Assembly: GCA_030522415.1 (NCBI GenBank)
Contig: CM060124.1
Location: 32,910,380 to 32,974,379, forward strand
Direction of reading: 5' to 3'
Length of the DNA stretch: 64,000 nucleotides
Source: Channallabes apus
Lineage: Eukaryota; Chordata; Actinopteri; Siluriformes; Clariidae
The translations under genes and the position numbers were made by a program. Shown piece by piece: positions 41,672 through 64,000 of the stretch (its first letter is position 1; the number at the start of each line of letters is the position of its first letter). The notes under the pieces are model-generated. The model did no database searches. It was not told the origin of the DNA and worked only from the letters and a program-made list of their open reading frames with translations.

Positions 41672-41698
41672 AGGGTTAGGGTTAGGGTTAGGGTTAGG
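41672..41698 (+). repeat. Telomeric repeat run (TTAGGG)4
   Basis: Four uninterrupted GGGTTA units. It forms the junction between L2-B2 and the left flank of PLE-1. Confidence 0.95.
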
Positions 41699-42281
41699 AT
41701 TAAGAATAGAGTTTAGGTAATTCCCACTTTTGGGTTTAAATTGCACTGGCAACATCTTCCACTTCCGGTGAAATCTTTTGTCTACCACTGAGACCAATAT
41801 AAGGCACTCCTTAATCTGGAAGATAATCTATATGGGAAAAGGGAGGGAAAAAACCTTAATTAAAATACTTCAGCAAATAAGACGGTAAAATAGGGTTCCA
41901 AACACTTAGGGATTCAAAAAAACAGGTTTATGGAAAATTGAGGATAGGAAAAACAGGGTTATGGTTAGGAATGGGAATGGGACTTGGGGATCAAAGAAAT
42001 AAAGGTTAGAAAAACTAAAGGTTATGATTAGGGATGAGGGGTCTGACGACCTAGAGAAAGAAAGGAGAAAAAAAATATTCCACAAGCTGAAAGGTTATGG
42101 TTAAAATTAAAAACACCTAGGGATTCAGAAAAACAGGTTTATGGAAAATTGAGGATAGGAAAAACAGGGTTATGGTTAGGAATGGGAATGGGACTTGGGG
42201 ATCAAAGAAATAAAGGTTAGAAAAACTAAAGGTTATGATTAGGGATGAGGGGTCTGACGACCTAAAGAAAAAAAAAAGAAA

Positions 42282-42313
<32 letters not shown>

Positions 42314-42430
42314 GGGGGGAAATAATATTTCAGAAACTGAAAGGTTATAGTTAAAATTGGAAAGGACAAAAAAAAGAAAAAAAGGGGGGGGGGGGAGGAG
42401 AGAGAGGGAAGGAATGTAAAAAGAAAAAAT
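41699..42430 (-). repeat. Left inverted satellite arm of PLE-1 locus
   Basis: Reverse complement of about 48240-48910. It includes two copies of an about 211-bp unit (marked by GAGGGGTCTGACGACCT at about 42035 and 42246) and homopurine runs (42268-42320, 42370-42400). The arm ends outward in telomeric repeats. Confidence 0.85.
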
Positions 42431-43042
42431 CTGGAACTCGGGCTGTCGTTGATCTACCAGTATCACCATGTATACATCCATAAATACACATGCATAGCTA
42501 CACACCTCCACATACACTTCCTCTTCAATATATTTCCTTTTTAAAAATACTCTCACCTATATGTACCATATCCCACACCCATCTCCCCCTATAGGATGGA
42601 GATAAAATTCAAAACCAAACCAAGTTTTGCTCATTTTCTCAGGATGATCATCGGTTGTCTTCCCAGTCTTTGGAGCCACTAGATAATTGTTCAAAAAAAA
42701 GTGCTTTTGTTGGACAAGTGCTATAAAATACAAAGAGTACCGAGGTACTAAAAGTGCTGATTATATCCTCACATCAATCGTTCACACACACACACACACA
42801 TCTAAAAAGGGAACAATTCCTCTGGTTCCAAATACGACCTGTTTAGAGCTCAAACTCGTTTGTTTAAAAATGCTATTCCTCGCCATCCTCCTGTGTACAA
42901 GTTTCCAAGAAATGTATATATATAAAAAGAGGACCTATAGATATATTTAAATACTAAATAATTTATTTTATAACAAACAACAAGAAAAAAATACCATACT
43001 CCACACATAATGATACTTTCCTTTTATCCCAATCATATCAAG
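42431..43042 (-). other. PLE-1 3' region
   Basis: AT-rich, with a CA run (42784-42802). No gene. It separates the ORF2 stop from the satellite arm. Confidence 0.6.
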
Positions 43043-60708: not shown

Positions 60709-61413
60709 AAAAATAATAAAATTCTAAAATATTTTTTATTTCAAAAATATGAGAAAAGGAAAAGGGAAAGAAAATTGAATACAGAAGAAAGAAAAATTTT
60801 TTTTTTTTTTTGTGTAATGAACTAAACAAAACACTGAAACAGGGAGGAAAAGAGTTTGCCAAGGAAAAAAAATATTTTTTCTTAAGAAGAAGCTTGTTAG
60901 CAAAACAAAGCTATGCTAAGACAAAGCTTGTTAGCAAAACAAACTTAAAAATGAAATGAGGAAAAATATATTAATATAAATATATATAAGAGAGAAGTTT
61001 TGTCCTCTTGGATAAAGAGTTCACTCTGGCTTTTAGGAAGAAAGACTAAAGTCTTTAAACAATCCTTTGTCAGTTCTGAACAATTTTTTCCAATAGAAAA
61101 GGCTCTAAACTCAACAATAGCTCAACCGTGTTGCTCCTACAGCTCTCTATCTCCAACTGAAAGGCTGCCTGCCTGTGAGTCATACACTGAGGCTAAGCTC
61201 CGCCCCCTTGTAAAAAGGAAAAAAGAAAATAACAAAAAACTTTCAGTTTGGAGCTTATTTTTATTTTCCTCACTTGGTTTTTTCCTCTCCCTGATAATTC
61301 CTAATATGGTCTCCTTGTATTCAAAATTATAAATAAAATCATAATAATTATTTTTGTCCCTTATTTTCCATTTTTTTTAAATTTCCCAATTTTTGCAATA
61401 TATTAAATTAGAA

Positions 61414-61569
61414 CAGGTAAGTATATCCAGGTAAGTATAATTAACCAATATATGTTAAATGATTAAAACATCCATAATTCTGTTTATTCAATCATTTTAA
61501 GGTCCAAGAAAATATTGTTTTATCCATTGTTTATAATCAATTTATGAAATATCATATTCTTTTTTACAG
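61414..61569 (+). other. Intron-like segment antisense to PLE-B
   Basis: On the plus strand ACAG/GTAAGT (61414) and TTTTTTACAG (ending about 61569) delimit 156 bp of AT-rich sequence. The following bases open an ATG frame (MDDADTSVAQLSEVALA) that runs into the next PLE. It could be chance or a host exon fragment. Confidence 0.25.
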
Positions 61570-61630
61570 GTTCCATGGATGATGCAGATACATCGGTAGC
61601 TCAACTATCGGAGGTGGCACTGGCTAGGTT

Positions 61631-64000
61631 AGGTTAGGGGAAATGGCCGCGACGCCAGGTCATGCCCGCTCCCACGCCGGAAATGAAAGGTTAAAATTAG
61701 GGTTGGGTAAGTTAGGGTTAGAAAAGATTAGGGCTAGGAAAAAATAGGGTTGGAAAGGGTGGGGAAGGTTATGGTTAGGGATAGGTTTGGATTAGGGATA
61801 GGTAAGGGTAGGGGATAGAAAGCGCAGAGTGGGCAATCTCCAACATCCACGTTGTGCACTGGCCTACCTCACAGTCACCAAGCACCGACATCCCCGCCAC
61901 TTGGTTCTCCTGAACATGAGCCTTATACGACCCTAGATTGCTCATTTAAACCCCATGGATGCATGGAACTTAAATTATCAATCCATGTCCGTTCTACCTG
62001 TTTTCTCTTGTGGTGGGACCACCATCTGTTTTGTTGTAATCCCATAACCTTTAGGGATTCAATACCGTGTTTTACGAAATGTTGGACAACCACAGTGTGT
62101 AAATCTTTTTTATGTCTGATGTTATATTTATGTTGTGTCAACCTCACCGCCAAAGTGTTTCTGGTCTCTCCCACATACTGTTTATTGCACTTTGTACAAT
62201 AAATTAAATAGACACAATTACTTGTGTCATATTTCAAGGCCGGGAAAATCTCGTAGATGGTTTTAGTTTGTGGGTTTTGGACCCATCGTTTTGGCCTGAT
62301 TTCTCTTAGTGGGGCAGGTTTCCTTTTTTCCTCTCCCGAGGGTGGTAACCTGCTTCGGACCAGAATGTCTTTAAGATTTTGGTTTTTGCGGTAGGCTGAA
62401 ATGATTTTGTGGTTGTCCAACAGTTCGTTTTGCATATGAAAATGATGAAAATTTGATTTCATCAACCTATTTAGATGAACACTTCCTTTGGAGAAGGTTG
62501 TGATCAATGGGATCATTTCTTTACTATCTTTCTTTCTTTTTACAAGAAATTGACCCTCACAGCTTCTCAGGAAGGAACGGGAATAACCTCGTTTCCGGAG
62601 TGCCGAAAAGAGAGTGCTTTTCGCTTCCAGGAAATCCTCGGGCTGGGTACATATTCTGTGAAATCTCTGTATCTGAGATTTCACAATACCCCTAAAAGTA
62701 TGCTTTGGATGAAAGCTTGATTTGTGGAGAAGTGCATGAGTGTCAGTGTCTTTAAAAAAGCCTCTGACATCCAATTTGCCCGTCTCCACAAATCCTTTGC
62801 CCTTATAGGTTACTGTGTCCAAAAAGTTGACACCCGCTCTGTCCATCGTGTATTTGATTTTTATTGAACGGTGAAAATTGTTTAGGTGGTCCGCAAATTG
62901 TTTAAATTCATCCTCAGTACCGGTCCAAACACCCCAAATGTCATCAAGAAACCTATAATAACTAAAGGGTTTAAATTCCCAAGCAGCCAATGCCCTTTCC
63001 TCCCATCTTGCCATGAATATGTTGGCATAGGAAGGGGCAAACTTTTTGCCCATGGCTGTACCTTTGACCTGGAGGTAATGCTTGGAATTAAATTCAAAAT
63101 CATTTTTTGTAAGGTTAATGTCCAGTAATTTTAAAATGGCTTGCTCAGGTCTGTTTTTATCAGGGAATTTAATAAACCACTCTCTGACCGCTTCCATACC
63201 AGCTGGTGTTTCGATATTGGTGTATAAACTATCAATATCGATAGTGAACAGGAAACAGTCAGGAGGGAGAGAAAGATGTTTTATCTTTTCAATGAAATCA
63301 TAGGTGTCTCTAATGTAACTTGGGTGTCTGGTGCTGATCGGGTTGAGGAAATATTCAATATACTCTGCTGTGGCCTGTGTTTCACTGCCACAGTCAGAGA
63401 CAATGGGGCGGCCCGGTGGCATCTCAAAAGGAACACTCCAGCTGTGTGGCTCCTTATGGATTTTAGGGAGGAGGTAGAAATACCTGGGGCGTGGATTGTC
63501 AGGGCCCAACAGGTAAGTTTCTTGTTTTTTGTTTATAAAACCCTCCTCCCTTAATTTAGTGAGTATGTCCCGTACGACAGGAACCGTTTTAAGGAAGATG
63601 GGTTCTGAAAGTTTTTTATAATACTCTTCCTGGTTCAACTGTCGTTCCGCCTCCATTATATATGTCTGTAGATCCATTATGACCACAGCACTTCCTTTAT
63701 CGGCCGGCTTGATCACAATGGATCTATTATTTTTTAATTGTAGTAGGGCCTGTCTTTCATCCCTACTCAGGTTTGAAACTACCCTGTAGTTCCAGGGTAT
63801 ATTCCTGATCGCATATTTATCTGCTCTAATTATCTGTCTGATAGTATTTGGGACCTGAGATAATTTGGGGGTCCAGTTGGACTTTCCTGTAAACGGAAGG
63901 ATTTCTCCCTCCTTCTCAAATCTATAGAAGGCTGCCAGAAGCAGTCTCCTATGATATTGCTGTGCATCAGCGATCAATTGTTTTTTTGTATTTATATTAA
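61631..64000 (-). mobile_element. PLE-B copy 2 (tandem, cut by window end)
   Basis: Repeats copy 1 with an offset of 5495 bp and very few substitutions. Its 3' edge is TAGGTTAGGTTAGGGG (61625-61640), a short telomere-like run at the tandem joint. ORF1 and the 5' end lie beyond the window. Confidence 0.9.
61923..64000 (-). CDS. PLE-B ORF2 (copy 2, partial)
   Basis: Same protein as at 56428-58662; the N-terminal end is cut off by the window edge (the frame is still open at 63977 and beyond). Differences seen are few, for example EPHSW for EPNSW and SDCGSE for SECGSE near motif 3-4. RT motifs (FTIDIDSLYTNI, GTAMGKKFAPSYANIFM, YRFLDD) and the GIY-YIG YVGETR are unchanged. No break is visible. 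Confidence 0.92.
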   Translation of the reverse strand, partial: NINTKKQLIADAQQYHRRLLLAAFYRFEKEGEILPFTGKSNWTPKLSQVPNTIRQIIRADKYAIRNIPWNYRVVSNLSRDERQALLQLKNNRSIVIKPADKGSAVVIMDLQTYIMEAERQLNQEEYYKKLSEPIFLKTVPVVRDILTKLREEGFINKKQETYLLGPDNPRPRYFYLLPKIHKEPHSWSVPFEMPPGRPIVSDCGSETQATAEYIEYFLNPISTRHPSYIRDTYDFIEKIKHLSLPPDCFLFTIDIDSLYTNIETPAGMEAVREWFIKFPDKNRPEQAILKLLDINLTKNDFEFNSKHYLQVKGTAMGKKFAPSYANIFMARWEERALAAWEFKPFSYYRFLDDIWGVWTGTEDEFKQFADHLNNFHRSIKIKYTMDRAGVNFLDTVTYKGKGFVETGKLDVRGFFKDTDTHALLHKSSFHPKHTFRGIVKSQIQRFHRICTQPEDFLEAKSTLFSALRKRGYSRSFLRSCEGQFLVKRKKDSKEMIPLITTFSKGSVHLNRLMKSNFHHFHMQNELLDNHKIISAYRKNQNLKDILVRSRLPPSGEEKRKPAPLREIRPKRWVQNPQTKTIYEIFPALKYDTSNCVYLIYCTKCNKQYVGETRNTLAVRLTQHKYNIRHKKDLHTVVVQHFVKHGIESLKVMGLQQNRWWSHHKRKQVERTWIDNLSSMHPWGLNEQSRVV

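Follow-up and report, generated by a model that had tools for sequence, protein, structure and literature searches.

Telomeric repeats adjoin the 3′ ends of Penelope-like elements, including endonuclease-bearing families, in the fish Channallabes apus

Three families of Penelope-like elements (PLEs) in the genome of Channallabes apus, here called PLE-1, PLE-A and PLE-B, have 3′ ends that adjoin short telomeric runs in one consistent orientation, and the anatomy of the junctions suggests that telomeric G-strand 3′ ends served as primers for their reverse transcription. The families were found in a 64,000-nucleotide stretch of contig C21 (32910380-32974379; hereafter the window), in an assembly of 1.165 Gb in 93 contigs. 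C21 has 32,989,074 bases; the window spans 78.7 to 14.7 kb before its end, and the assembly of C21 terminates within a PLE-B copy. As the first-pass annotation of the window had noted, telomeric runs are present at the 3′ ends of PLE-1 (41672-41702, plus strand), PLE-B copy 1 (56110-56140, plus strand) and unit 2 of PLE-A (55007-55025, TTAGGG on the minus strand), and the single orientation that it described was confirmed, the G strand entering the complement of the element 3′ end in all three cases. Allowing up to 2 mismatches, TTAGGGTTAGGG is matched 60 times in the window, compared with a mean of 6.5 and a maximum of 12 in 100 shuffles. A degraded PLE with telomere-like repeats on its 3′ side had also been proposed at 25305. 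An endonuclease remnant is indeed located there (25311-25409, minus strand; 33 amino acids of the endonuclease C-terminus, E = 1.4e-6), but the repeats are degenerate, resembling those of the 3′ untranslated regions (UTRs), and no clean junction was seen.

Beyond the window as well, CCCTAACCC in element sense adjoins every non-tandem 3′ end that was examined in the three families (24 of 24), and at every one of these junctions the TTAGGG strand enters the complement of the element 3′ end. Thus, neither copies without a run nor mixed orientations were found among the readable ends, and the orientation was the one that the annotation had predicted. The first 16 ends comprised eight of PLE-1 (including the inverted end described below), six of PLE-B and two of PLE-A; the run had at least 2 units in 15 of them and ~1.5 units at C13. 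A further eight PLE-B 3′ ends, four of them interior, were picked by position with the sequence unseen, and all eight had CCCTAACCC. The background frequency of CCCTAACCC within 12 nt downstream was 0.0039 per position in the fetched subtelomeres, and the binomial probability of 15 of 16 junctions arising by chance was 1.2e-35, without correction for the relatedness of copies, which makes the binomial figures too strong. The telomeric tracts at the joins measured 10-130 nt, and ~22 distinct flanks were represented among the junctions read. Three control TTAGGG runs away from contig ends (L001, L006 and L008) matched PLEs only in low-complexity or 26-base pieces. The set of 24 does not contain the C75 copies, which have the same flank as C21; nine tandem ends (eight plus one on C2); a 3′-truncated PLE-B fragment on C17; small or diverged pieces on C2, C8, C13 and C19; or the 78%-identical copies on C5 and at the left of C19, which have one common flank, where a telomeric unit follows the match at a distance of ~10 nt. 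It likewise leaves out hits of the PLE-B reverse transcriptase (RT) search with unfetched flanks, eight having been fetched (three of four hits on C26, one of four on C15 and one of two on C1).

The sequence encoded by the elements themselves could be read at their tandem junctions, which are TTCTTAATCCTAACC-TA-GCCAGTGCC in PLE-1, TTTTTTAAACCTAACC-TT-GCCAGTGCC in PLE-A and CCCCTAACCTAACC-TA-GCCAGTGCC in PLE-B. Common to the three families are the start GCCAGTGCC and the tail CCTAACC, which has a 5-base register and is the complement of GGTTAGG, that is, of telomeric DNA; no six-base telomeric repeats were present at the tandem junctions read. Because the elements' own tail is only CCTAACC in this 5-base register, the six-base TTAGGG runs are not element-coded, and synthesis of TTAGGG templated by the element was rejected for the same reason. 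The register of the join also varied. In PLE-1 it was TTAATCCTAACCC on C21 and C25, where the element's TTAATCC is kept, versus TTAACCCTAACCC on C8, C17 and C19, with TTAACCC; in PLE-B three registers were found, namely CCCCTAACCTAACCC, CCCCTAACCCTAA (C20 and C1) and CCCCTACCCTAACC (C7 and C26). Such differences between copies fit telomeric ends annealing in different phases, not a fixed element-borne repeat. At least four more recurrent tail types, TAAAAAGACGTAGCCC, TAAAGTAAAATAATCC, GGGGAAATGACCGTGG or GGGAAAATGACCGTGG, and TTTGCATTGAGA, follow TTAGGG runs with the same polarity in the subtelomeres of C2, C13, C17, C19, C21, C8 and C4 (L023-L051); two of them resemble PLE-1 and PLE-A in having GCC[AC]GTGCA 50-59 nt from the end and a hairpin.

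On the other side of the runs, the flanking DNA is repetitive at several sites, which allows uninterrupted copies of it to be read. In the window, the run at the PLE-1 3′ end follows a long interspersed nuclear element (LINE; 38597-41673, minus strand, with RVT_1 in the open reading frame (ORF) at 39667-40572) that is broken at CTACGGAG. Paralogues of this LINE on C1 and C4 read straight through without a telomeric run, and a search of the last 37 kb of C21 did not recover a 300-base piece of the sequence with which the LINE would continue. Eleven of the 24 sites were tested in this manner, and at all 11 uninterrupted flank paralogues without the run were found, with 1 to 16 copies each (counted in non-overlapping fetched stretches, the telomeric run being sought in the 40 bases before the join). 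Run-bearing copies of the flanks were the tested sites themselves, except for C8 27713 and C26 26.898 Mb, for which the run was also found in each other or in a C19 join of another tail type. The copy on C20 interrupts the same kind of LINE as PLE-1 of the window at another position, and a 2.93-kb subtelomeric satellite is the flank at the C7, C26 (26.843 and 26.898 Mb) and C8 joins; this satellite is found in tandem at several chromosome ends (L046, L044, L043, L032 and L035). The missing host flank was not found distally at any of the three informative sites (the LINE and a GC-rich satellite on C21, and the satellite on C8), and a fourth site, with 527 bases to scan, was uninformative. Judged from their sequence, the flanks fit a broken end to which telomerase would have added a few units before the element was attached; telomerase has been reported to act at breaks during the evolution of mammals (PMC2246262).

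We also assessed where the elements lie and how they are oriented. Telomeric arrays terminate the left ends of C13 and C6 and the right end of C19; therefore, these contig ends are chromosome ends. The PLE-1 tail had 15 matches, 12 without C75, at nine loci, six of which have a contig end within 50 kb (P = 2e-11) and seven within 80 kb (P = 2e-12). For PLE-B, the best 60 of 340 candidates in the RT search were scored, and 24 of them were on chromosome contigs. Nineteen of these 24 are located within 80 kb of an end (on C21, C8, C4, C15, C20, C22 and C1), and all 19 have the 3′ end toward the centromere. Taking the PLE-B ends together with PLE-1 on C19 right, C2, C13 and C17, this polarity was observed at 11 chromosome ends; a copy at the left of C19, which lies 78 kb from the end and is not among the 11, also has its 3′ end centromere-ward. 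Among telomeric tracts shorter than 1 kb at all fetched ends, which are not independent of one another, the 3′ end of the G strand faces the chromosome end in 52 of 58.

Nine of the 12 truncated 5′ ends with visible boundaries begin directly after CCCTAA in sense and are thus capped outward. Not counted in the 12 were copies reaching N, a contig end or the fetch limit, the C75 copies, the C17 PLE-B fragment, the C5 and C19-left copies, and the small or diverged pieces on C2, C8, C13 and C19. On C15 and C26 (4.22 Mb), internal sequence of another PLE-B copy lies past the run, and a truncated PLE-B 5′ end thus appears to be capped by the very run that bears the next tail. A different setting was found 11.24 Mb inside C25, where a truncated relative of PLE-1 is bordered on each side by the same 45-nt sequence, an exact duplication made up of CCTAACCCTAACCCTAACCCT plus 24 nt of local DNA; the telomeric run is thus present in both copies. 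In this single case, a staggered break with 3′ overhangs that exposes a G-rich single strand, much as at a telomere, would account for the join as well as for the duplication. The annotation had suggested telomeric priming at chromosome ends or at interstitial tracts, and the data support this suggestion for both settings, C25 being interstitial with a target-site duplication.

PLE-1 and PLE-B have two ORFs each, of which ORF2 carries RT and GIY-YIG domains. PLE-1 (41703-47829, minus strand) has a tail that ends TTCTTAAT-CCTAACC, and its 726-amino-acid RT and GIY-YIG ORF (43043-45223, minus strand) matches RVT_1 (E = 2.3e-5) and GIY-YIG (E = 1.5e-4; 22.4 bits versus a cutoff of 22.6) in Pfam, both below the curated cutoffs. 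PLE-B copy 1 (56141-61624, minus strand; ORF1 58629-60653, ORF2 56428-58662) matches RVT_1 above the cutoff (E = 1.2e-7) and GIY-YIG with E = 2.2e-7. When aligned with 60 homologues, both proteins keep the RT catalytic residues (FLDD/YLDD and Asp), and the GIY-YIG residues Y, Y, G, R, H and E and the CCHH residues are invariant. PLE-1 and PLE-B thus encode a predicted endonuclease fused to RT, with conserved catalytic residues. PLE-1 ORF1 (45620-47026, minus strand) has 472 codons from stop to stop in the window versus 602 in the C8 copy, and most of the named proteins related to those of the elements come from fish (for example, Coilia and Tachysurus). The annotation had assigned GIY-YIG to these PLEs in general, which holds for PLE-1 and PLE-B but not for PLE-A: no RT or endonuclease ORF was detected in its 3.4-kb unit among the window ORFs or with Pfam. 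PLE-A unit 1 (48943-51635, plus strand) is 5′-truncated, with its tail TTTTTTAAA-CCTAACC joined to unit 2 (51638-55006, plus strand), which has ORF1 only (52484-54064). Because this ORF1 is without RT or endonuclease and the tail and start motifs are common to PLE-1 and PLE-B, PLE-A is likely a non-autonomous partner riding on other PLEs. PLE-A ORF1 has a weak GDSL-lipase match (E = 0.026, below the cutoff), and 4 of its 61 listed relatives have the GDSL Pfam domain; a PDB sequence search returned a single chance-level match (E = 0.63). A structure model of its C-terminus, made without an alignment, was poor (mean predicted local distance difference test score 45) and was not used.

We consider it probable that an exposed telomeric G-strand 3′ end base-pairs with the CCUAACC tail of a GIY-YIG PLE RNA and thereby serves as the primer for reverse transcription. 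In most cases a chromosome would break inside a repeat, and telomerase would heal the broken end with a few TTAGGG units, to which the CCUAACC tail of the element RNA would anneal and be copied. Copying would often be incomplete; telomerase would then cap the new end and the next element would attach to it, and repeated attachment would give rise to outward-pointing stacks of elements. At interstitial telomeric runs, the element endonuclease or another staggered break might expose the G strand and leave a target-site duplication, as on C25. The head-to-tail tandem copies are likely products of template jumping from end to end, or of unequal exchange at a later time.

Several other explanations were weighed against end-priming. 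Telomere-specific non-LTR elements nick within telomeric repeats, and the enzyme might similarly nick the G strand within double-stranded telomeric repeats rather than use open ends. The conserved endonuclease residues, the resemblance of C25 to a staggered cut at an interstitial run and the cutting of both strands by an Anolis PLE (PMC11167929) are in its favour; however, the flank repeat has run-free copies at the 11 tested sites and the distal flank was not found at three, which is better explained by broken and healed ends. We therefore regard nicking as the general route as possible but doubtful, although both routes may operate. A run carried in the RNA, by read-through into downstream CCCTAA, could be deposited anywhere by ordinary target-primed insertion, which would account for the run-free flank paralogues at 11 of 11 sites and for the short tracts. 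Against this, the join register varies among copies of one family, the elements show chromosome-end location and polarity, the host flank was not found past the array at three sites, 9 of 12 truncated 5′ ends are capped, and C25 has the run in both target-site duplications; we consider this explanation improbable.

Exchange among subtelomeres, in which a few ordinary insertions beside telomeric DNA were later copied from one chromosome end to another, would fit three observations: C75 duplicates the C21 locus, C4 and C8 have one PLE-B subfamily, ~91% identical to the window copy, and three joins cluster at one satellite position. However, the ~22 flanks, the several registers, the occurrence of three unrelated tails and at least four further recurrent tail types after TTAGGG runs, and the interior C25 copy make it very unlikely. 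Finally, given that degenerate TTAGGG-like repeats are present inside all three 3′ UTRs, the adjacency could be uninformative, reflecting merely the richness of 3′ UTRs and subtelomeres in telomere-like repeats; with a CCCTAACCC background of 0.0039 per position versus 24 of 24 junctions observed, we give chance practically no credence.

Some observations weigh against end-priming by these elements. All data come from one assembly, and we infer priming from junction anatomy. The joined runs are short (10-130 nt) compared with kilobase telomeres. The C8 27713, C26 26.898 Mb and C19 (other tail) joins lie within ~10 nt of one another at one satellite position, and these three may go back to a single ancestral break or mark a hot spot. 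The scan for distal flank on C8 included 5000 masked bases. The 5′ cap is missing at C2 5763 and C25, and PLE-A unit 1 is preceded by repeats in reversed orientation. With regard to location, 36 of the 60 scored PLE-B hits are on contigs without a known chromosomal position, and the terminal 10 kb of C1R, C5R, C25R, C6L and C19R contain no PLE-1, PLE-A or PLE-B match. With regard to polarity, PLE-A and the inverted PLE-1 tail in the window point the wrong way relative to the chromosome end, the 3′-truncated PLE-B fragment on C17 is reversed, and 5 of the 24 PLE-B hits, on C7 and C26, lie 0.8-4.2 Mb from the nearer end, relative to which they are reversed. Four flanks of these interior hits were read, with subtelomeric satellite at three and other PLE-B DNA at one; it is possible that these copies (C7:45.91 Mb; C26:26.84-26.91 and 4.22 Mb), with their subtelomere-like flanks, mark old inversions, fusions or assembly joins.

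The remaining features of the window concern mainly the arrangement of the elements. PLE-1 is flanked by telomeric repeats on both sides, the 5′ side being an inverted copy of its tail that ends in CCCTAA repeats (47828-48934, plus strand; inverted repeats I1-I8). The inverted arms, 402 nt long and 100% complementary (41677-42078 and 48532-48933), each end in telomeric repeats, and the inverted tail meets PLE-A in a head-to-head CCCTAA/TTAGGG junction (48917-48942); the arms and this junction perhaps record two ends bridged by two primed copies. At the PLE-B tandem junction (61616-61640, minus strand), the tail CCCCTAACCTAACC is followed by TA and the 5′ start GCCAGTGCC; from copy 2 (61627-64000, minus strand), the tandem array runs on past the window toward the chromosome end. 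Degenerate telomere-like minisatellites occupy the 3′ UTRs of all three families (41900-42290, 51170-51380, 54550-54760 and 56200-56320). A scan with a hammerhead core motif revealed hammerhead-like cores 0.3-0.9 kb after the unit start in PLE-1 (47481-47507, minus strand), PLE-A (52005-52032, plus strand) and PLE-B (60669-60695, minus strand), and a fourth at the left edge of the window (150-177, minus strand) with matching arms on both sides; shuffling of single bases yielded 1.55 cores compared with these four, and Rfam found no hammerhead match in 40-64 kb of the window. The RT ORF at 26170-27321 was considered as a PLE and rejected, as it belongs to a LINE: the stretch around it and the LINE at 38.6-40.7 kb have 95% identity. 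Ordinary transposons are also present, with DDE_3 transposase and integrase H2C2 domains (23419-24039 and 15591-17873).

PLE reverse transcriptases are relatives of telomerase, and two kinds of PLE offer themselves for comparison. Endonuclease-lacking PLEs are described as lying largely at chromosome ends and having telomeric repeats added to their truncated 5′ ends (PMC3846280), and Terminons as attaching to G-rich ends by means of a telomeric stretch, in reverse complement, that follows a hammerhead (PMC6431247). GIY-YIG PLEs are described in a sturgeon study as having random insertion sites with a preference for AT-rich regions; the study also reports that, in lake sturgeon, host DNA next to degraded GIY-YIG PLEs is joined to a herpesvirus whose terminal repeats are telomere-like, and its authors suggest a chance viral integration at breaks made by such PLEs (PMC12031113). 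The Anolis Poseidon enzyme cleaves AT-rich DNA, and the internal tail site at which it begins copying is not homologous to the target (PMC11167929), whereas the tail of the present elements matches the joined telomeric DNA. Among the open-licence papers listed in our literature searches, none described GIY-YIG PLEs on vertebrate telomeres in its title or in the opening of its abstract. Whether the elements form a vertebrate counterpart of Terminons, in which endonuclease-bearing families and riders such as PLE-A rebuild broken ends in relay with telomerase, seems to us evenly balanced. If so, CCUAACC would be a template like that of telomerase RNA, and subtelomeres would be partly built by retrotransposons. 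Elements whose RT and endonuclease residues are conserved display the anatomy of endonuclease-lacking ones, so that telomere use and endonuclease loss would be separable. The role of the telomerase RNA template would here be played by the RNA tail of a retrotransposon, in a vertebrate-type setting. This would also be one way in which interstitial telomeric runs originate and subtelomeres grow after breaks.

The telomeric non-LTR elements TRAS, SART, HeT-A and TART join or build chromosome ends in fixed polarity. The C. apus elements are likewise retroelements joined to chromosome ends in fixed polarity, but they have another class of RT and GIY-YIG instead of APE, and no poly(A) was found at the joins read here. 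In their short TTAGGG runs at presumed breaks they resemble telomerase healing and the telomerase-made interstitial runs of PMC2246262, from which they differ in that a retrotransposon tail comes after the run. With Penelope, Poseidon and Neptune, the GIY-YIG PLEs, they share the RT and GIY-YIG ORF (in PLE-1 and PLE-B), inverted tails, head-to-tail tandem units or terminal repeats, and perhaps the hammerhead-like core. With the endonuclease-lacking Athena and Terminon elements of rotifers, they share a 3′ tail complementary to the telomeric G strand (CCTAACC in three families), truncated 5′ ends capped by short telomeric runs (9 of 12 here), stacked and tandem arrays at chromosome ends with the 3′ end proximal, and an ORF with a weak GDSL-like match. 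Unlike Athena and Terminons, PLE-1 and PLE-B reside in a fish genome with TTAGGG telomeres and have an RT-fused GIY-YIG domain with conserved catalytic residues, the hammerhead-like core is found here only in the 5′ region and not directly before the tail, and one copy is internal with a 45-nt target duplication. PLE-1 and PLE-B thus combine the telomere anatomy of endonuclease-lacking PLEs with the enzyme of GIY-YIG PLEs.

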